The position numbers were made by a program, and so were the translations under genes. Shown here piece after piece: positions 1 through 28,382 of a stretch of 38,396 nucleotides of DNA. Positions within the stretch are counted from its first letter, which is position 1, and the number at the start of each line of letters is the position of its first letter. Under the pieces are notes generated by a model. It saw only the letters and a list, made by a program, of their open reading frames with translations, ran no database searches and was not told where the DNA came from. The DNA is from a virus. The stretch is taken from positions 1-38,396 of the IMG/VR virus record IMGVR_UViG_3300010403_000039; one strand, 5' to 3'.

Positions 1-132
1 CAATATGCTATGCTATCCAACAAGACCATCGGGTTATGGCTTGACAACAAGATCACCATCCCATATAACAACATACTTCGTATCGCTATTTTATTAGACC
101 TTGAAGCAGATGACCTTGTGGAGGTAGTGTGA
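1..132 (+). CDS. C-terminal fragment of a putative helix-turn-helix DNA-binding protein
   Basis: Open in frame 1 from the first base to the TGA at 130-132, giving 43 residues. The pattern (an N-K-T-I-G-x-W-L stretch, then I-P-Y-x-N-I-L-R-I-A-I-L-L-D-L-E) resembles the recognition helix and following helices of Cro/CI-like HTH proteins, where a late 'lriA.lLgld' segment is typical. The N-terminus is outside the window. The stop overlaps the GTG start of the exonuclease gene by four bases (GTGA), so the two are probably co-transcribed. The HTH assignment rests on pattern only; a Met at 10-12 could be an internal start but would leave no complete HTH. Confidence 0.5.
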   Translation, partial: QYAMLSNKTIGLWLDNKITIPYNNILRIAILLDLEADDLVEVV

Positions 133-746
133 AAGCCATATTTCTTGACCTAGAAACAACTGGATTAGATTTTAAGAAACACACCGTTGTTGATGTTGCT
201 GTAAAAGCTGTCAATCTACACGACAACACCGAACTCTTCACATACAACAGTCTCATCAAATGCTTCGAGTGTGAAATCAAGGATGCAGATAAGGAAGCTA
301 TGAAGGTTAATGGTTTGACCTACGAGAAGTTAAGGGAAGGAAAGCACCTCATTCAGGTTAAGTACGAGCTTCAAGACCTGTTGGTTGAACATGGATTATT
401 TCATGAACATGCCGTATTCATCTGTCAGAACCCTTCCTTTGATCGCCCTTTCTTTCAGCAGATTATTGACCAGGAAGAGACCAAAGAGCTCAAGCTACCC
501 TACCATTGGTTAGACCTTGCTTCGATGTACTGGATCAAATTCTATGGCTCTTGTTACCCCACTCCTATAAGAATCAGTCTATCTAAAGACTCAATAGCAA
601 AGTCCTTTGGCATTCCTCCAGAAGAAAAACCTCATTCAGCGTTAAGAGGTGTTGAACATCTCATTCAATGCTACTATGCTGTATCGCATAACATGATATG
701 CAACCCAACAGAGCCAGTCATTTATCAGGATTTCCTTCCCTTCTAA
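129..746 (+). CDS. DEDDh-family 3'-5' exonuclease (DnaQ/RNase T-like)
   Basis: Predicted 205-aa exonuclease of the DnaQ superfamily, which removes nucleotides from 3' ends of DNA or RNA using two metal ions. Exo I is clear: FLDLETTGLD with Asp7 and Glu9. Exo II is QNPSFDRPFF with Asp105. Exo III is PHSALRGVEH, with the general-base His169 present, but the usual Asp five residues later is Gly174. The start is a GTG overlapping the upstream stop. A phage role in DNA degradation, repair or proofreading is inferred; no polymerase is encoded nearby. The altered Exo III motif leaves catalytic activity uncertain. Confidence 0.82.
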   Translation: MKAIFLDLETTGLDFKKHTVVDVAVKAVNLHDNTELFTYNSLIKCFECEIKDADKEAMKVNGLTYEKLREGKHLIQVKYELQDLLVEHGLFHEHAVFICQNPSFDRPFFQQIIDQEETKELKLPYHWLDLASMYWIKFYGSCYPTPIRISLSKDSIAKSFGIPPEEKPHSALRGVEHLIQCYYAVSHNMICNPTEPVIYQDFLPF

Positions 747-15913: not shown

Positions 15914-16237
15914 ATGTCGAATACAGGCAACAGCATAAAGAATGAGGCGATACGAGAAATCGCTGGCGGTTCTGTTACTAGCTCATATCAACCACTGGGA
16001 AGCGTCTTCACAAGAGACGCTTTCCGTATAACTCTCACCAATTGGACGAATGGGGATGTTTACCTATCTACCGATGGGGTGACGGATATGATGAAAATGC
16101 CCTTATTTTCTGCAAGAGTTTTGGATGACAAAACTAATGATATGTACCGCAAGAAGGGTACTCAAATCTATATCCGTTATGACATGACACCAGGCGCACC
16201 GACTGGCTGGGCAACTATGGAGGTTGAATACGTATGA
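15914..16237 (+). CDS. Small beta-rich virion protein
   Basis: 107 aa with GGAGG 10 bases before the ATG. The pattern suggests a small beta-sandwich (AFRITLTNWTNGDVYLSTDG, GTQIYIRYDMTPGAPTGWAT). This type is common near podovirus head genes; a head or fibre-associated role is inferred. It ends in an ATGA overlap with the fibre gene. Confidence 0.62.
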   Translation: MSNTGNSIKNEAIREIAGGSVTSSYQPLGSVFTRDAFRITLTNWTNGDVYLSTDGVTDMMKMPLFSARVLDDKTNDMYRKKGTQIYIRYDMTPGAPTGWATMEVEYV

Positions 16238-17526
16238 GCGGCATATCACTTACAAATAATAACGGAGGGATTACCCCAGTGTCACCAGATATTGAATTTA
16301 TCCAAGGCAATGATGGGATCAACGTGGGGCCAAATCCTACAACTCACATCATTTTATTAGTGGGAGATAACACCCAGGGTGTCGATACGTCTGGTAATGC
16401 GGGTACGTACACCGAAACTATCACGATGTTTGATGCGACGACGGCTCAAAAAGGGGTTACCCTTTTAGCTAGCGATGCGGAAACAATCGCAGGAGCTGTA
16501 ACGACCAAAGCGACAACCCCGAGCAATGTGAAAGCAAAGCTTGGAGCTCAGACGCTTCATGGTCTTGCTTATGGTAATAGTCAGACAGGAGCCGTTCAAT
16601 GGCTAGCTGAAGCGACCGATGGTCAGATCCCAATCGGGGACACTGGCGGAATTCCCATTTTGGGAAATATCACGAGCTTAGACGGCACAGTCACTGTCAC
16701 CAATGGCGCAGGAACGATCGACCTTTCAACCGCCGTTTCCTCTTCAGACATTGCTACTTTGACGGGTAATGATGCCGTAGTTGTTGGCCCAGAGCCAGGC
16801 ACGTTCAATGTAAATATTATTGGCGATACTGCTCAAGGGGTTCATGTCAATGGTAATGCTCTTACTTGGACAGAGGAAATCACGATTGATGATGCGACAG
16901 AGCTTCAAAAAGGGGTAGTCCTTTTAGCTTCGAATGCGGAAGCAATTGCTGGAACCGATACAGGGAAAGCAATCACTGCCGATGACTTAAAAGCAAAGCT
17001 TGGAGCTCAAACTCTTCATGGTTTGGCTTATGGTAATGCGACGACTGGAGCTGTTCAATGGTTAGCTGAAGCGACCGATGGTCAGATTCCAATCGGGGAC
17101 ACTGGTGGAATTCCTATTTTGGCAAACATCACAAGCTTAGATGGGTCTATCACGGTCACTAACGGCCCTGGTTCGATCGATCTTTCATCCACAGCCTTTA
17201 AAGGGACAGCCCAAACAATAGGAGCAGTTACAGCTGATCTTATTACAGTACCTCTTGGAGCTGTTGCGGGAACATTCCAATTCGAAGCTAGAGTTAAAGC
17301 TTTTGAAGCTAGTAATCCAGCGGGTGCGGGATACAACCTTTACGGAACATTCACCACCGACGGACTTGCTGCCACTTTAGTCGGTCAACAACCAATCTTC
17401 AATGAAGACGCTGCATTAAGTGCAGCAGATGCGTACTTTGTTGCTTCTGGTAACAACGCTGTTCTTCAAGTACTTGGTGTTGCTCTATTAACAATAGATT
17501 GGTCAGGCGAGACCGAAAAAACATAA
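16234..17526 (+). CDS. Tail-fibre protein with duplicated 153-residue module
   Basis: 430 aa. A unit starting at Gly25 (GND..VGP) is repeated 153 residues on at Gly178. Each copy contains a Phage_fiber_2-like motif (ATELQKGVVLLASNAEAIAG, T.KAIT..DLKAKLG) and a conserved LHGLAYGN ... AVQWLAEATDGQIPIGDTGG segment. Such repeats form trimeric fibre shafts. The C-terminal 105 residues differ (from TAQTIGAVTADLITVPLGAV onward) and probably form a head or knob domain, beta-rich with an ending LLTIDWSGETEK. The protein probably makes part of the host-recognition apparatus. The two copies are also alike in DNA. Confidence 0.8.
   Translation: MSGISLTNNNGGITPVSPDIEFIQGNDGINVGPNPTTHIILLVGDNTQGVDTSGNAGTYTETITMFDATTAQKGVTLLASDAETIAGAVTTKATTPSNVKAKLGAQTLHGLAYGNSQTGAVQWLAEATDGQIPIGDTGGIPILGNITSLDGTVTVTNGAGTIDLSTAVSSSDIATLTGNDAVVVGPEPGTFNVNIIGDTAQGVHVNGNALTWTEEITIDDATELQKGVVLLASNAEAIAGTDTGKAITADDLKAKLGAQTLHGLAYGNATTGAVQWLAEATDGQIPIGDTGGIPILANITSLDGSITVTNGPGSIDLSSTAFKGTAQTIGAVTADLITVPLGAVAGTFQFEARVKAFEASNPAGAGYNLYGTFTTDGLAATLVGQQPIFNEDAALSAADAYFVASGNNAVLQVLGVALLTIDWSGETEKT
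16306..17223 (+). repeat. Two tandem 459-bp copies encoding a fibre module
   Basis: The DNA of the shared segments is offset by exactly 459 bases (for example AAGCAAAGCTTGGAGCTCA at 16532 and 16991), which keeps the frame. Identity is highest in the middle part and low at the module start, so the duplication is old or the ends have diverged. In-frame copies of this kind can recombine to lengthen or shorten the fibre. Confidence 0.75.
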
Positions 17527-17535
17527 GGATTAATC

Positions 17536-18435
17536 ATGGCTGGAATTCAAAACACCACGTTGTTTTCTCAGGGGGAAAGACTTCAAACTTCCTCAGCTCA
17601 AGATATTTCGGAAATGCAAACAGACGCTACCGACGTTTCAAGGATTAACTATACAGGTAATCCAGAAGGGGTAGTGTCTGCAAATCCGAGCTCTATGAGC
17701 CATGATCCTGTTTCAGGAAACATTTATCAAAAGCAGACTGGTACGGGAAATACTGGGTGGGCACTCATAGGAACTGCTCAAGATTTCAACCCGTTCAAAT
17801 TTGTCAGATTGTTTGATGATTTCTACAGTTCATTCTTAGCTAATGCCATTGATGGAAGATGCGGAGAACTGGGATGGCAGACTTATGGAGGACAATGGAG
17901 CCAAGGAGTCGGAACGGCTGCTAATCCTGGAGTAGCAACTCCAACGAATGGTGGTTTTGCTTCTATGACATTGGACAATTCGGATAACACCGCTTCTGTT
18001 CAGGTTGGAGGAGGCGTCATTACTTTGAGTTACGTGTTAGACCTTGTGGCTCTATCTGCGGTAGCAAATCGATATAACTTTTATTGCGGTCTGGGTGGGA
18101 TTACTCCAAACAATGGGATTTATTTCACTTATTCGGACAACGTGAACTCAGGAAACTGGCAGATCGTTTGTGCGAAAGCAACCGTAGGGACAACGACAAC
18201 AAATACATCAATTGCTGCAACCACTGGTTACCATAAATATCAAATCGTCATAAATGCAGCTGGAAATTCGGTTTCCTTTTACATCGACGGTGTGTTAGCT
18301 GGAACAATTGCCACTGCCAATATACCCACAGCTGCCATCTCGCCTATTGTTTCCTTCGTTCGTTCTTCAGGAGCACTACCAGCAGCATTATTTGACCTTT
18401 TTGTTTTAGAAAACATTTTAACTACTTCGAGGTAA
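17536..18435 (+). CDS. Tail-fibre/spike protein with shared adaptor and ConA/LamG-like head
   Basis: 299 aa. Residues 1-78 (starting MAGIQNTTLFSQGERLQ) are a roughly three-quarters identical copy of the start of the next gene, probably an adaptor attaching to the tail. Residues 90-299 follow the jelly-roll pattern of LamG/concanavalin-like lectin modules (FDDFYSSFLAN, TGYHKYQIVINAAGNSVSFY, IDGVLAG). Such domains bind glycans, so this is a likely receptor-binding protein. Each fibre starts with its own ribosome-binding site, AAGGATTAATC here. Confidence 0.75.
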   Translation: MAGIQNTTLFSQGERLQTSSAQDISEMQTDATDVSRINYTGNPEGVVSANPSSMSHDPVSGNIYQKQTGTGNTGWALIGTAQDFNPFKFVRLFDDFYSSFLANAIDGRCGELGWQTYGGQWSQGVGTAANPGVATPTNGGFASMTLDNSDNTASVQVGGGVITLSYVLDLVALSAVANRYNFYCGLGGITPNNGIYFTYSDNVNSGNWQIVCAKATVGTTTTNTSIAATTGYHKYQIVINAAGNSVSFYIDGVLAGTIATANIPTAAISPIVSFVRSSGALPAALFDLFVLENILTTSR

Positions 18436-18436
18436 C

Positions 18437-20575
18437 ATGGCTGGAATTCAGAACACCATCATCTTTTCCCAAGGGGAAAGACTTCAGGCTTCTTCAGCAC
18501 AAGATGTTGCGGAAATGAAGACGGATGCCACCGACGTTTCAAGAATTAATCATACAGGCAGTCCAGAAGGTGTTATCAATGCGAATCCTAGCTCTCTTTG
18601 CCATGACCCTGTTTCTGGAGTTGTTTATTATAAATCGGCAGGAACTGGAAACACTGGTTGGATTCCTATACCCGATCCAATTGGCCAATTATCCTATTTC
18701 GCAAATGCTGGGGGAGATGCCTACATTACTGCCTTAGGATGGTTAAAGGCTAACGGTCAAGTGGTTTCTCAAGCTACTTATCCAACTCTTTTTGCTCGTG
18801 TGGGTTTAATCAATCCTCCTGGCCAATATTGGGTTAACCAGCTATCGAATACGACAACCAATCTGTCAACCGTGGTTTACGGAAATGGCGTCTATGTAGC
18901 TGGCTCATTTAGTGGAAGCATCCACACTTCAACGGATGCAAAGACTTGGGTGAGAAAAGCCAGTCCTTTGAGCAGTGCTTTCCTAAGCGGAACTTATGGG
19001 GCAAGCAAATATTTTCTTACAGGTTCATCTAGCCAGATCGCTACTTCAACCGATGCTTTGACATGGCAAACCAAGCTTCCCGCCATTGCTTCACCCGCTG
19101 CGAATATGGGTAACATCCTTACTTATTCGAGTGGATTTGTCGCAGGGGGATCAAGCGGTTTGATGGTCACTTCGACTGATGGAAATTTCTGGACAGGTCA
19201 GAATACAAATCTTTTGACGAACATTTATTCGCTTAATCATGGAAACAGCATCTATGTAGCTGGATCAACTCTAGGTCAAATAATTACTTCAACAGATGCT
19301 GTGACTTGGACGGCTAGAACGGCAAGCACGACATCAACTGTTCAAGCTCTAGTTTATGGACTCCAATGGGTACTCGCTGGCCAGGGCGGGATGATAAAAA
19401 CATCCACTGACGCTATAAGCTGGACGGCTCAAACTAGCGGAAGCACATCTTCTCTCTTCTCTTTGACTTACAATGGAAGTCTTTACTTAGCAGGTGGAGT
19501 CGGTGGAGCAATGCTCACATCTACAGATGCCGTCACTTGGACAGCAAGAACAAGTGCAACTACATCAACCATCTCCACAATTACTTTTGGAACTGTTTAC
19601 GCTTATGGAGGTGGAGGAGGAAGGATTGCAAGCTCTACTGATGCCATTACATGGACGAATAGAACTAGCCAAACTACAAGCTCAATTCTTTGCATGATCT
19701 ATGCAAACTCACTTTATGTCTACTCAACCCTAGTAGGTGGTATAGGAACGTCAACTGATGCGACGACCTGGACAGCCAGAACTAGCGGAGTAGGAGCCGA
19801 TTTAGCAGGATTGGCCTGGGATGGAGCTCTTTATCATGCCGTAGGAAATAACGTTCACATTACATCAACAGATGCTATTACATGGACGGCAGCTGTTCAA
19901 TTCCCAGTTCAGCAATCACTCACCGCAGCCTTATTCGCAAATAGCTTATTTGTGGCAGCTGGGACAGGTGGTGTGATGGCAACTTCAACAGATGCCTTTA
20001 CATGGACATCTAGAACCACAGGAACAACCGCCCCGATCAACGGATTGGCGTACGGGGCTGGAGTTTATGCCTTTGCAGCTAATGGTGGAGCTTTAGCGAG
20101 CTCCACAGATGCAATTACATGGACTGCAAGAAGCTCGTTTACTACTCAGACACTATCCGCAATGACTTTTGGAACTTTATTCGTAGCAGCTGGGGCCCAA
20201 GGAACTGTCGTGACTTCAACCGACGGTACTACATGGAGCGGTCAGGCTCCTATAAATGCAGGGATAAACATCTTTGCAGCAGCTTACAACACTAATTTGT
20301 ACGTTCTTGGGGGTGGATCAGGATCTATATACACCTCTACAGATGCTATGACATGGGTAACAAGAAGTTCAAATACCACCTCCTCTATCCAAGCTTTAGT
20401 GAGCGGAGGGGGACTATTCGTGGGAGCTGGGATTGGAGGTGCAATAATCACTTCCTATAACGCTTACCCTTACGATACATCGACACAATTCCAGCTTCCT
20501 AATGATGCTGGAGCAGCAATAACAACCGAAACAGTGCCTAACTTTGCTAGGTCACTTTACATAAAGGCAGCATAA
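18437..20575 (+). CDS. Tail-collar fibre protein interrupted by a multi-repeat beta-propeller
   Basis: 712 aa. Residues 1-78 repeat the adaptor of the previous gene. Residues 98-125 (ALGWLKANGQVVSQATYP and on to LFARVGLI) match the first half of a phage tail-collar domain. Residues 679-712 (YDTSTQFQLPNDAGAAITTE ...) match its second half. Between them are about 13 copies of a 40-45 residue repeat with a Y..G.YVAGG..G.I.TSTDA.TWT.RTS pattern, plus a degenerate 14th, typical of BNR/Asp-box-like propeller blades. Thus the propeller is inserted into the collar fold. It may bind or act on surface sugars, but no hydrolase residues are evident. It follows its neighbour by one base and ends just before a glycosyltransferase. 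Confidence 0.8.
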   Translation: MAGIQNTIIFSQGERLQASSAQDVAEMKTDATDVSRINHTGSPEGVINANPSSLCHDPVSGVVYYKSAGTGNTGWIPIPDPIGQLSYFANAGGDAYITALGWLKANGQVVSQATYPTLFARVGLINPPGQYWVNQLSNTTTNLSTVVYGNGVYVAGSFSGSIHTSTDAKTWVRKASPLSSAFLSGTYGASKYFLTGSSSQIATSTDALTWQTKLPAIASPAANMGNILTYSSGFVAGGSSGLMVTSTDGNFWTGQNTNLLTNIYSLNHGNSIYVAGSTLGQIITSTDAVTWTARTASTTSTVQALVYGLQWVLAGQGGMIKTSTDAISWTAQTSGSTSSLFSLTYNGSLYLAGGVGGAMLTSTDAVTWTARTSATTSTISTITFGTVYAYGGGGGRIASSTDAITWTNRTSQTTSSILCMIYANSLYVYSTLVGGIGTSTDATTWTARTSGVGADLAGLAWDGALYHAVGNNVHITSTDAITWTAAVQFPVQQSLTAALFANSLFVAAGTGGVMATSTDAFTWTSRTTGTTAPINGLAYGAGVYAFAANGGALASSTDAITWTARSSFTTQTLSAMTFGTLFVAAGAQGTVVTSTDGTTWSGQAPINAGINIFAAAYNTNLYVLGGGSGSIYTSTDAMTWVTRSSNTTSSIQALVSGGGLFVGAGIGGAIITSYNAYPYDTSTQFQLPNDAGAAITTETVPNFARSLYIKAA

Positions 20576-20576
20576 A

Positions 20577-21245
20577 ATGACGAAAGTAATGATAGCAACT
20601 CCAGCGTATGACGGTAAAGTTCATGTCCCATACGCTACTTCTTTAGCAGAGACAACCTTCCTTCTTCTAAAGAACAATATTCAAGTGCATTACAACATAA
20701 CCACCTCTGGATCACTTCTGGTTGCCGAAAGAAACCGAATTCTTCAGATGTTCATGGATAGTGATTGTACTCACCTCCTTTGCATTGATTCCGATCTTGG
20801 GTGGCCAGCTAATTGTGTGCCATCTCTTTTGCTTTCTGATAAGGAATTCGTGGCAGGTGTCTATCCTTCCCGTGGAGAAAAATCCTTTACTTTCCGTCCT
20901 TCTGTCAAAGAGGACGATTCGATCATTACAGAGGGAAACCTCTTGAAAATGGAATACATCCCAGCTGGTTTCATGCTCCTTAAGAGAAGCGTGATTGAGA
21001 AGATTAGAGCTAAATTCCCAGAGCTTTATTACGAGCCCAAGCATGAGACAATGAAACATGCCAAGGGCTGGCTATTCTTCAATACAGAGATCTGGAACGG
21101 AGAATTCTGGGGAGAAGATTACACATTTTGCCGTAAGGCTCGCGAAGCTGGCTGTGACATTTGGGTCGATCCAATGATTGAGTTCGACCATGCAGGCCAA
21201 AGAGGAGCTCTTATGAGTGCCTTGACTGATAAAAAATCTGAATAG
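20577..21245 (+). CDS. GT-A type glycosyltransferase
   Basis: 222 aa. The N-terminal half follows the nucleotide-sugar binding fold of GT-A enzymes: MTKVMIATPAYDGKVHVPYA, a helical part with ERNRILQMFMDSDCTHLLCI, and a DSD metal-binding motif at 71-73. A later GEFWGEDYTFCRKAREAG segment around 175-195 is the usual acceptor-side conserved part. The fold transfers a sugar from a nucleotide-sugar to an acceptor. Placement inside the fibre cluster with one-base gap to the fibre gene suggests co-expression with virion proteins; modification of the fibre, host surface or DNA is possible. The target is unknown. Confidence 0.82.
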   Translation: MTKVMIATPAYDGKVHVPYATSLAETTFLLLKNNIQVHYNITTSGSLLVAERNRILQMFMDSDCTHLLCIDSDLGWPANCVPSLLLSDKEFVAGVYPSRGEKSFTFRPSVKEDDSIITEGNLLKMEYIPAGFMLLKRSVIEKIRAKFPELYYEPKHETMKHAKGWLFFNTEIWNGEFWGEDYTFCRKAREAGCDIWVDPMIEFDHAGQRGALMSALTDKKSE

Positions 21246-24809: not shown

Positions 24810-27800
24810 ATGTCTAATAATCATATAATCACGAAGAACATAGGAAATCTGAGAGGATTCTCGACAGATTCTATATTCTTACGTCCGTCTAACGTGGCTG
24901 ATAAAGCGATAAATATCCAAAAGGCTCCTGATGGAACCTTGCAGCTCCGTCGTGGTTATCAATGTCAGATTGCCGACATCGGGGGAATGGGAATTGGAAC
25001 CTTTGATGATCCAGCCTTGGATGAAATCCGAACAGTATGCGTCGGAACTGATGGAATGCTCTACAATAAGCTGACAAAGCAGATAATGCTTTATTATAGC
25101 AACACCGTTTCGGGTGTAATAACAGGTGTCAGCAATACAAATCCAGCCGTCGTTCAAAGCGTTGCTCATGGATTACAAATGGGAGCCATCATCACCATTC
25201 GAAACGTTGGTGGCATGCTCATCCTTAACAACAATCAATTCATTGTAAACACTGTCATAGATGTAGACCATTTTGAAATCTACAATTTAAATGGAACTCC
25301 TGTAGATGCAAGCAATGTAATAAACTACCCTCCTTATACTTCTGGTGGTACTTGGACAATCAGTTTCACAGAAAATAGATACCTGACTTTCTCAATCTTC
25401 GTTGACCCTGCTTTGATTTATAATGGATCGGGTCAGAGCATTAATTGCTCAGTATTGTCTAATCGTTCAGCTCAGATTGTCGGAAATCAAACCCTGGTCA
25501 ACACTATCAATGTTCAGTTCGGCCATGACTTAGCTACTGGGGATGTTGTTAGGTTTTTTAACAATTTAGGGGTTCCTCAAGAAAGAAATGTGACTGGCAC
25601 AACTGCATTCAGTGTCACCGTTGATGGAACTGCTGTTTCTGTCAGCAATAACGCATTCATCAACCAATACTTTGAATTCCCATTTGGTAAAGGATTCGAT
25701 GTATCCTCTCCTTACCTGATTTCTCAATTCATTTCAGCCATTACAAACGTCACGACTGGGGTTCCTGGATTAAAAATCGCAGTGAATGGAAACACAAATC
25801 TACCCGCAGCTTTCCTTCAAATTGTAGAGCCCACGGTCATCGATCAAAACCTGCCATTTATCATGGATTACTGGTATTGGCAGCAGGTTAATTTCACCGT
25901 CAACCCCCCTTTTCCAGGTTCGGCAAACACTCGTTTTCAAAACTCCCCAGATTTCGAAAATGCTTCGATGGCAGTTTTTGATGACGTGATTTATATCTGT
26001 AATGGATGGGATTACCCTCAAAAGTACGACGGTCAAACAGTCTATCGGGCAGGAATGCCAATCGGAGTAAGACCTCCTTTAGTGGCCGATCAAGCAACGG
26101 CCTTATCGATGCCTTTCACGAACACTCAGGTTTATGAATACGCTATTACTTATGAACAAGTAGATGCCCGTGGTCATATTGTCGAAGGAGAAATCTCACC
26201 TGTTAGACAACATACCGTTGGTGGAACTCCTAGAGCAATGGATGTCACAGTCACCAACATTCTTCCAGCGCAAGGAGCTTTTTTAGCCAATAACTGGAAT
26301 ACAAATGGGGCTTTGGCGGTTGCTGGAACAGCTACAGTTTACGGCCCTGATGCCAATGGAAATTACTATGACTTTGTTTCCTTAACTCCTGGCTTTACTC
26401 TCAAAATTGGTGATTCTGCCTATTATGCCGATCAGACATGCGCCGTTATGACAGCTGCGGGAACTAGCAACACAATACCCGTTTCAGCTGGTCATGGGAT
26501 CATTCCTGGAGACACAGTTTATTTCTATGATACAGGGGCTACTCGTACAGTTCAAAGGGTGGTAGAATTAACCACGGCTACCAGTATCACTGTCTTAGAT
26601 GCTCCCGTCACCTTCAATTTTGCCACCAACCCCAATATCATGGCTTATAAAGCTAGCTTGGTATTCGGAGATGTCGCCATTGTCGACGGAACACAAACTA
26701 ACGTGAATAACATTCTTGTATTAACTGGTCACACTGTTCAAGTTGCTGACGTTGTTGAATTCATCGACACTCAAAACAATCTTCAGAGAAGAACGGTCAC
26801 TTTTGTCGATGCCACCCACGTCACAGTTAACGGAATTCCTGTCAATGTAACCACTGGATTCACGATCACCTCAACAAATCAAAGAACTAACGCTTTGAAT
26901 TTCCAAAGACGGAATGCCAATGGAATCACCTTCCAAGCTCAAGCAGCTGCAACCGTTCCTTATGGAAGCCTAGCTATTTCCAATAATCTTCGAATCAATA
27001 TCTATAGAACGTTGGCTGGACAGAGCTTTGGAGTTAATGGAGAACTCTTTTTAGTCGCTGCCATTCCCAACAATTCTCTGGGTGCTGGAACACAACTTTA
27101 TACCGATGGATTGATCGGAACCCCAGGCACACCACCCGTCGAAGAATTGGGCAGACAATTTGATGACCCCGATCAAGCTCCTAATCCCCCTCCTATTTCG
27201 AAGTACGTCAAAGCTTTCGGGAACCAGTTATTTTATGCAGGTGGATTGAGAGGAAATGCAGAGAATTCGGATAGAGTGTTCTTCTCGGATGGTAATGCTC
27301 CCGAAGTCGTGCCTTTAGCAACTAACTTCTTTAATGTCCCGAACGTGGATGATGACATCACGGGTATAGGGGTATCAGGAAGCACTTTTATAACCACCAA
27401 AAACCATTCCTTGTGGGCAGCAACAGGAAACTTCCTCTCTGGTCAGATTGATGTCGTCCAGATTGCCCCAGGTACTAATATAGGATGTGTAGCTCATGCG
27501 ACGATCTGTTCTGTCGGTACTCTTATGTACTTTGTCCACACTAATGGGGTCTATGCGATCACCGAAAACCAACTCTTCCCCACCGACGCATTTGGAAACC
27601 CGATCCCGATCTCGTTGGCTATAGATGCACTTTTCAGGGAGACAAATTTCCTTCCTCAAAACAAATACGTATTCAAACGTGCGGTTGCAGTCAACTACAC
27701 CAAAGACAACCAATACTTATTATTCATCCCATGTGAGGATACACAAACCACGATCAGAGATGCCAACGCCAACTCTGTTCTATTAGCCTATGACTACCAG

Positions 27801-28382
27801 GAAAAAAACTGGTTCACTTGGAACAACATGAATGCAGCGGGTGGAATATTCGTCATTGATGATGATCTCTACTTTCAAGAAAGAAGATTTTCTCGTGTAG
27901 ATGGCAACACCTCCAACCTTTACAAACAACACAGATTTTACAGACTTGTCGACCATGCTGACCATGCAGGTGCTCAAATCTGCGAATGGGCTTCCTCATG
28001 GGAAGACTTAGGTCAACCAGAGGTTAGAAAGAAATTCTGCCGATGCGTTCTATTGATGGATAGGCTTTCCGATCTCTATCAGTTTAATAACCCAAGCATT
28101 GAATTCGCTACCTATCTGAATCGATTGCCCAACCTGAAGAACACAATCGCCACTATCAGCCAGGTAGACAATATCAGAAACTCGTCTTGGTCACTGTCTG
28201 CATGGGGTTGGGGATTCTGGTCAGGGTATCAGGATTCCTTTATCACTGTCAATTTGAAGCAGGGAACCGTAGCTAAATCAATGCAGGTTGGTTTTGTTAT
28301 CAAAGGTATTAATATGGATATTAGATTGGCTGGATTTCAACTAGAAGCAATTCCAGAAAACAGAAAGTCGGTATTAAGATGA
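24810..28382 (+). CDS. Large tail nozzle / tubular-B-like protein
   Basis: 1190 aa. The start ITKNIGNLRGFSTDSIFLRP and the 'APDGTLQLRRGY' part resemble podovirus nozzle proteins (T7 gp12 / P22 gp10 type), as does the later LFYAGGLRGNAENSDRVFFS and the TKNHSLWAATGNF strand set around 860. Four FCCH-like modules are seen near 101-180, 219-280, 543-610 and 620-690 (the recurring GH.l..GDvV.F signature), inserted in an otherwise propeller-like frame. The nozzle forms the hexameric exit of the short tail. GTAG precedes the ATG; no strong ribosome-binding site is seen, which is unusual here. Confidence 0.78.
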   Translation: MSNNHIITKNIGNLRGFSTDSIFLRPSNVADKAINIQKAPDGTLQLRRGYQCQIADIGGMGIGTFDDPALDEIRTVCVGTDGMLYNKLTKQIMLYYSNTVSGVITGVSNTNPAVVQSVAHGLQMGAIITIRNVGGMLILNNNQFIVNTVIDVDHFEIYNLNGTPVDASNVINYPPYTSGGTWTISFTENRYLTFSIFVDPALIYNGSGQSINCSVLSNRSAQIVGNQTLVNTINVQFGHDLATGDVVRFFNNLGVPQERNVTGTTAFSVTVDGTAVSVSNNAFINQYFEFPFGKGFDVSSPYLISQFISAITNVTTGVPGLKIAVNGNTNLPAAFLQIVEPTVIDQNLPFIMDYWYWQQVNFTVNPPFPGSANTRFQNSPDFENASMAVFDDVIYICNGWDYPQKYDGQTVYRAGMPIGVRPPLVADQATALSMPFTNTQVYEYAITYEQVDARGHIVEGEISPVRQHTVGGTPRAMDVTVTNILPAQGAFLANNWNTNGALAVAGTATVYGPDANGNYYDFVSLTPGFTLKIGDSAYYADQTCAVMTAAGTSNTIPVSAGHGIIPGDTVYFYDTGATRTVQRVVELTTATSITVLDAPVTFNFATNPNIMAYKASLVFGDVAIVDGTQTNVNNILVLTGHTVQVADVVEFIDTQNNLQRRTVTFVDATHVTVNGIPVNVTTGFTITSTNQRTNALNFQRRNANGITFQAQAAATVPYGSLAISNNLRINIYRTLAGQSFGVNGELFLVAAIPNNSLGAGTQLYTDGLIGTPGTPPVEELGRQFDDPDQAPNPPPISKYVKAFGNQLFYAGGLRGNAENSDRVFFSDGNAPEVVPLATNFFNVPNVDDDITGIGVSGSTFITTKNHSLWAATGNFLSGQIDVVQIAPGTNIGCVAHATICSVGTLMYFVHTNGVYAITENQLFPTDAFGNPIPISLAIDALFRETNFLPQNKYVFKRAVAVNYTKDNQYLLFIPCEDTQTTIRDANANSVLLAYDYQEKNWFTWNNMNAAGGIFVIDDDLYFQERRFSRVDGNTSNLYKQHRFYRLVDHADHAGAQICEWASSWEDLGQPEVRKKFCRCVLLMDRLSDLYQFNNPSIEFATYLNRLPNLKNTIATISQVDNIRNSSWSLSAWGWGFWSGYQDSFITVNLKQGTVAKSMQVGFVIKGINMDIRLAGFQLEAIPENRKSVLR

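Follow-up and report, generated by a model that had tools for sequence, protein, structure and literature searches.

In the phage tail fibre analysed here, three domains appear to be nested like dolls at one fibre tip: a small tail-collar domain is split by a predicted seven-bladed propeller, into which a second seven-bladed propeller would in turn be inserted. The gene lies in a window of 38,396 nucleotides (the whole stretch of DNA that was analysed, positions 1 to 38,396 of IMG/VR virus record IMGVR_UViG_3300010403_000039). From its position and architecture we infer that the protein forms a modular, exchangeable receptor-binding tip, and we put the probability of this at about 0.72. The features on which the argument draws are these:

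18437..20575, + strand: whole tail-fibre gene, 712 amino acids (anchor, split collar and predicted nested double propeller)
18437..18676, + strand: N-terminal anchor, residues 1-80, with a near copy in the upstream gene
18677..18814, + strand: tail-collar first half, residues 81-126 (strand, helix, strand, helix), from Pfam PF07484 and the model
18815..19072, + strand: predicted outer seven-bladed propeller, part 1 (closing strand 132-136 and blades 1-2), residues 127-212, border approximate, from the models
19073..19876, + strand: predicted inner seven-bladed propeller (blades 3-9), residues 213-480, from the alignment with 4bh6_H
19877..20467, + strand: predicted outer seven-bladed propeller, part 2 (blades 10-14), residues 481-677, from model alignments
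20468..20572, + strand: tail-collar second half, residues 678-712 (TQFQLP strand and C-terminal SLYIKA strand), from the joined-end match, profile comparison and model
20577..21245, + strand: predicted GT2/GT-A-like glycosyltransferase, PHROG 1574, 222 amino acids, co-inherited partner gene
17536..18435, + strand: sibling fibre that shares the N-terminal anchor but ends in a LamG/ConA-like half (weak Pfam hits), outside the cassette

The insert between the collar halves comprises 549 residues, in agreement with the insertion of some 550 residues in a collar loop that the first-pass annotation of this DNA had proposed, and it holds 14 STDA.TW repeats. The count given there, 13 clear copies and a degenerate one, proves exact: 13 copies conform to S-T-D-[AG]-x-x-W, the remaining one reads SYNAYPY, and the copies are spaced 38-42 residues apart, with number and spacing identical in the nearest relative, L001. 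The repeats are not Asp-boxes, as the seven-residue S-T-D-[AG]-x-T-W differs from the eight-residue Asp-box consensus, S-x-D-x-G-x-T-W. They are covered by DUF6242 (PF19755), a propeller-like repeat family of Pfam that also takes in BNR-like propellers from bacteria and from tail genes of a Limnohabitans phage and cyanophage; the examples of these that we examined differ from the fibre in being without a collar.

Two AlphaFold models were built, one from six sequences and the other from 21 sequences over residues 81-712. The first had confident blades, a low-confidence collar and the same outer-ring span as the second, which reached a mean pLDDT of 88.4 and a pTM of 0.81 (all five models 86-88). 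The predicted blades are four-stranded, with about 39 residues per repeat, and close into rings in the model. Seven-bladed propellers from the PDB align about 271 residues of the outer ring over model positions 51..597 (window residues 131-677; Z 30, rmsd 2.4), and 4bh6_H aligns 262 residues of the inner ring, contiguously, over model positions 133..400 (window residues 213-480; Z 28.0, rmsd 2.6). The simplest reading of these models is that the outer ring is interrupted after blade 2 by the inner ring (blades 3-9) and resumes at blade 10; its last blade would be completed by the strand at residues 132-136. These borders were tested on models of the window's protein, and gaps in the alignment hint that they may differ in more distant relatives. 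The two seven-bladed propellers suggested by the first-pass annotation are thus recovered as two rings of seven, but its description was incomplete, the rings being nested in the models rather than sequential.

Evidence for the split collar comes from several directions. The intact protein matches Pfam Collar at residues 101-123 (profile positions 14-36 of 57) with 25.5 bits, against a gathering cut-off of 24. When the ends are joined, a comparison that had been suggested beforehand, the match to PF07484 widens to profile positions 14-56 (37.1 bits, E 3e-9) and beats that of the first half alone. The first half had originally been placed at 98-125, which accords with the Pfam match, but structure prediction and the relatives put its true start nearer residue 81, at the beta strand IGQLSYF; the second half, placed at 679-712, was correctly located (678-712), though it is the weaker part by sequence. 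Joining the ends raises the Collar score in six of six members tested, adding only 1.4-6.7 bits in the five other than the window. Profile-profile comparison (hhalign) of the second halves alone gave P = 0.003, a value equalled by one of 100 column shuffles (approximately p 0.01, which is weak). Under a narrower, home-made collar HMM the window tail clearly outscored every control (200 shuffled tails and 103 slid ones), those of L001 and L004 scored narrowly above the control tails, and those of four members did not. The TQFQLP...SLYIKA motif (T-Q-F-Q-L-P and S-L-Y-I-K) does not vary among the seven closest members, and collar strands and helices are modelled on both sides of the insert in the expected order, with a pLDDT of only 53-80. 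Fold-match lists were filled by propellers, without collar structure matches, and are uninformative on the collar; an alignment that included ordinary collars put their second halves in the wrong place and was left out of folding. At the level of sequence and model we take the observation of a collar domain split by the propeller insert to hold, with weak sequence support and mixed controls for its second half.

The alternatives to this architecture can be weighed on the same data. Long regular repeats of tail fibres are often beta-solenoids, but four strands per 39-residue repeat, propeller matches throughout and repeat numbers of 7, 14 and 28 leave a solenoid with almost no credibility, and the original interpretation of the repeats as propeller blades is borne out by the AlphaFold models, to which solved seven-bladed propellers fit with Z of about 30 and an rmsd of 2.4. 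It is also very unlikely that the rings are sequential (blades 1-7 and 8-14), as they often are in known double propellers, or that all 14 blades make up one ring. Sequence alone cannot discriminate among these arrangements; the models argue against them, since the outer-ring alignments span 131-677 while using half the residues, one alignment covers 213-480 without a break, and a 14-blade ring could not fit seven-bladed rings at an rmsd of 2.4 over 271 residues. That the collar is unsplit, with a partial collar before the propeller and an unrelated short tail as C-terminus, seems slightly less remote in view of the weak second half, yet still improbable given the higher joined score in every member tested, the invariant C-terminal motifs and the order of the predicted collar strands.

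Parts of the split collar with its nested rings are known separately, namely loop-inserted collar fibres, propeller receptor-binding proteins and domains between propeller blades 2 and 3; it is the combination of collar and nested propellers that is new here. In T4 gp12 and other PF07484 fibres the collar is C-terminal, and one loop of its small core accommodates a large insert (PMC3004832). The present fibre is similar in having a collar in its C-terminal part with a big loop insertion, but differs in that the insert consists, by the models, of two complete seven-bladed propellers before the F-x-L-P strand. At the corresponding site ordinary collars carry an FGAGDG loop; TTFNLPDLRG comes next, then a variable knob that is often rich in His, and last a ETRPRNIALLACIKY strand. 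In the fibre family the propellers stand in place of the FGAGDG-type loop, and the usual knob between PDLRG and the C-terminal strand is down to about a dozen residues; the bulky insert therefore occupies a different collar loop than in ordinary collars. The trimeric receptor-binding protein Gp45 of Staphylococcus phage phi11 likewise has a propeller, the last blade of which is completed by an N-terminal strand (PMC4901313), the same kind of closing strand that our model predicts; however, Gp45 has five blades in one ring between a helical stem and a tower, with no collar and no nesting. The nozzle of SU10 and T7 is a propeller of seven blades, interrupted between blades 2 and 3 by other domains (PMC9509320), as we propose for the fibre, but it is a structural nozzle rather than a fibre tip, and its inserts are Ig-like rather than a second propeller. 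AIP1 (1pgu) also has fourteen blades in two rings, but it is an actin-binding protein of the WD40 sequence family and does not interrupt another domain.

A genome scan with the single fibre protein as query returned no relatives, whereas a scan with the alignment returned one family member (L056, from a Verrucomicrobia assembly) together with many secreted bacterial propellers without a collar. In all, the viral-contig and genome scans gave six close relatives (L001, L004, L005, L006, L007 and L056), which match the window fibre from approximately residue 81 to the end. Ahead of that point the relatives depart from the window sequence and, for the most part, from one another, L007 and L056 being a close pair. 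Residues 1-79 of the anchor, which is absent from the relatives, are 75% identical in amino acids to the N-terminus of the upstream gene. That sibling fibre shares the first 75-79 residues, with 77% nucleotide identity over 225 bases, and L006 and L005 contain counterparts of its C-terminal half. In an annotated phage collection no match covered 80% of the fibre query or held most of the protein, and no DNA similarity to annotated phages was found; a predicted-structure library does contain unnamed viral proteins of similar fold. We found no direct precedent in the open literature for collar-inserted propellers or glycosylated phage fibres.

The gene following the fibre is, on sequence grounds, a predicted GT2-like (GT-A) glycosyltransferase. 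Its match to a PHROG glycosyltransferase profile is weak (2.7e-4) and a Pfam search gave no GT family match; DxD, GEFWGED and a terminal His are invariant in 17 aligned glycosyltransferase sequences. The gene follows the fibre in seven of seven close members, with copies 67-82% identical to that of the window. The two genes lie close together, from a 4-base overlap to a gap of about 30 bases. Nucleotide similarity between the window and L001 runs from 18692, within the collar, to 21232, at the end of the glycosyltransferase gene. The settings around the two genes include baseplate-J genes in L001 and L007 and a tape-measure-like protein in L004. Collar, propellers and adjoining glycosyltransferase gene are thus, as far as sequence can tell, a cassette common to phages with otherwise unrelated tail modules. 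The linked enzyme gene, the mobility of the pair and the N-terminal anchor that the fibre has in common with the upstream gene had escaped the first-pass annotation.

With the enzyme alone as query and clusters set at 90% identity, a propeller fibre is directly upstream in 29 of 34 glycosyltransferase clusters, a proportion biased upward because the search began from propeller-linked enzymes. The remaining five have bladeless fibres as neighbours, which means that the enzyme does not go with propellers exclusively. More propeller fibres came from a second scan, which also yielded loci where the adjacent gene carries no blades (L187, L192), and cyanophage ACG-2014f has a distant homologue among tail-collar genes. 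In L134, L135, L136, L138 and L141 this glycosyltransferase family lies next to genes that lack propeller blades, several of which end in a shared C-terminal motif, RNGK.I...SEDL.LD...L.Y.

Codon comparison of the window with L001 gives 264 synonymous and 123 replacement codons for the propeller region, and this overall excess of synonymous changes implies a protein that is maintained under constraint; an overall excess of replacement changes was sought and not found. Synonymous and replacement codons number 143 and 32 in the inner ring, 29 and 37 in the first outer part, and 92 and 54 in the second outer part. The inner ring is therefore kept most strongly in this pair, but it is not the better conserved part between L007 and L056.

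Blade number was counted in readable complete proteins found through the neighbouring glycosyltransferase gene. L108, L118 and L171 (the last closely related to L118) have seven blades, the window and some 20 further proteins have 14, and L114 has 28. Apart from these, L115 has a degenerate array in which 27 blades are detected and the true number is less certain, and an incomplete protein (L110/L156) has at least 40. For several proteins the automatic count deviates from 14 by one (13 to 15 hits), and insert lengths of 544-586 residues support 14. Blade-to-blade similarity is about equal at every offset (63% in L114), so the blades seem to have been amplified singly; single-blade copying has been described for propellers in general (PMC9218822). 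Duplication of whole rings was considered and is unsupported, blades being equally alike at all offsets bar a slight rise at 14 in L114. If blades were indeed multiplied one by one, totals held at multiples of seven would reflect folding. As most 14-bladed members share ancestry, the pattern of blade numbers rests on few independent changes; the natural series of 7, 14 and 28 nevertheless offers material for asking why propellers close at seven. The 28-blade fibre of L114 (1468-4983), with blades about 63% identical to one another, was apparently amplified recently and lies beside the same glycosyltransferase family.

The gene's place in the tail-fibre region, an anchor that is also present in the sibling, the collar at the tip and the example of phi11 Gp45 together point to a role in host recognition. 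The N-terminal 80 residues probably fix the fibre to the tail, since the upstream fibre has nearly the same segment, and the small collar domain would be the scaffold of the tip. Both propellers would sit in the collar loop that joins helix 2 to the F-x-L-P strand: the chain would enter the outer ring, forming the closing strand and blades 1-2, go on to build blades 3-9 as the inner ring, then complete the outer ring with blades 10-14 and return into the collar. The T4 gp12 collar is trimeric; were this fibre trimeric too, six rings would be turned toward the host surface, with glycans the most likely ligand. The collar-propeller part and the glycosyltransferase gene are probably swapped as one cassette onto different anchors, and the most likely substrate of the enzyme is the Ser/Thr-rich fibre itself. 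As a tentative generalization, which we think has somewhat over a third of the weight on its side, the collar loop could be a general socket for arrays of seven-blade units, copied blade by blade, kept at 7, 14 or 28, and spreading across tail types with the glycosyltransferase that sugars them. If so, one two-gene cassette would hold both an adhesin and its modifying enzyme. At the least, a compact exchangeable host-recognition cassette can now be named, and the partner enzyme makes fibre glycosylation directly testable.

Two other views of function compete with a receptor-binding tip decorated by its partner enzyme. Phages do carry enzymes that modify host surface sugars, and the linked glycosyltransferase might act there, blocking further phages, rather than on the fibre. 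The five clusters beside propeller-free fibres fit such a role, but the short, soluble-looking protein, the tight coupling of its gene to the fibre gene and its movement with the fibre between unrelated tail modules make it a minority view, if one with appreciable weight. Less likely again is that the propellers are a spacer or a depolymerase-like enzyme and that host recognition falls to the LamG-like sibling fibre (17536-18435). Phage propellers can be enzymes, as in the endosialidases (PMC4901313), and the weak Pfam hits give the sibling a ConA-like lectin fold; against this, the fibre matches no glycosidase family, its repeats are regular and without a special catalytic blade, and the propeller device replaces the fibre tip in all complete members.

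Elsewhere in the window, the fibre protein encoded at 16234-17526 contains an internal direct duplication, about 100 residues long, and weakly matches tail collar fibre families, while 24810-28382 encodes a protein of 1190 residues whose match to the E1_FCCH domain lies close to the threshold.
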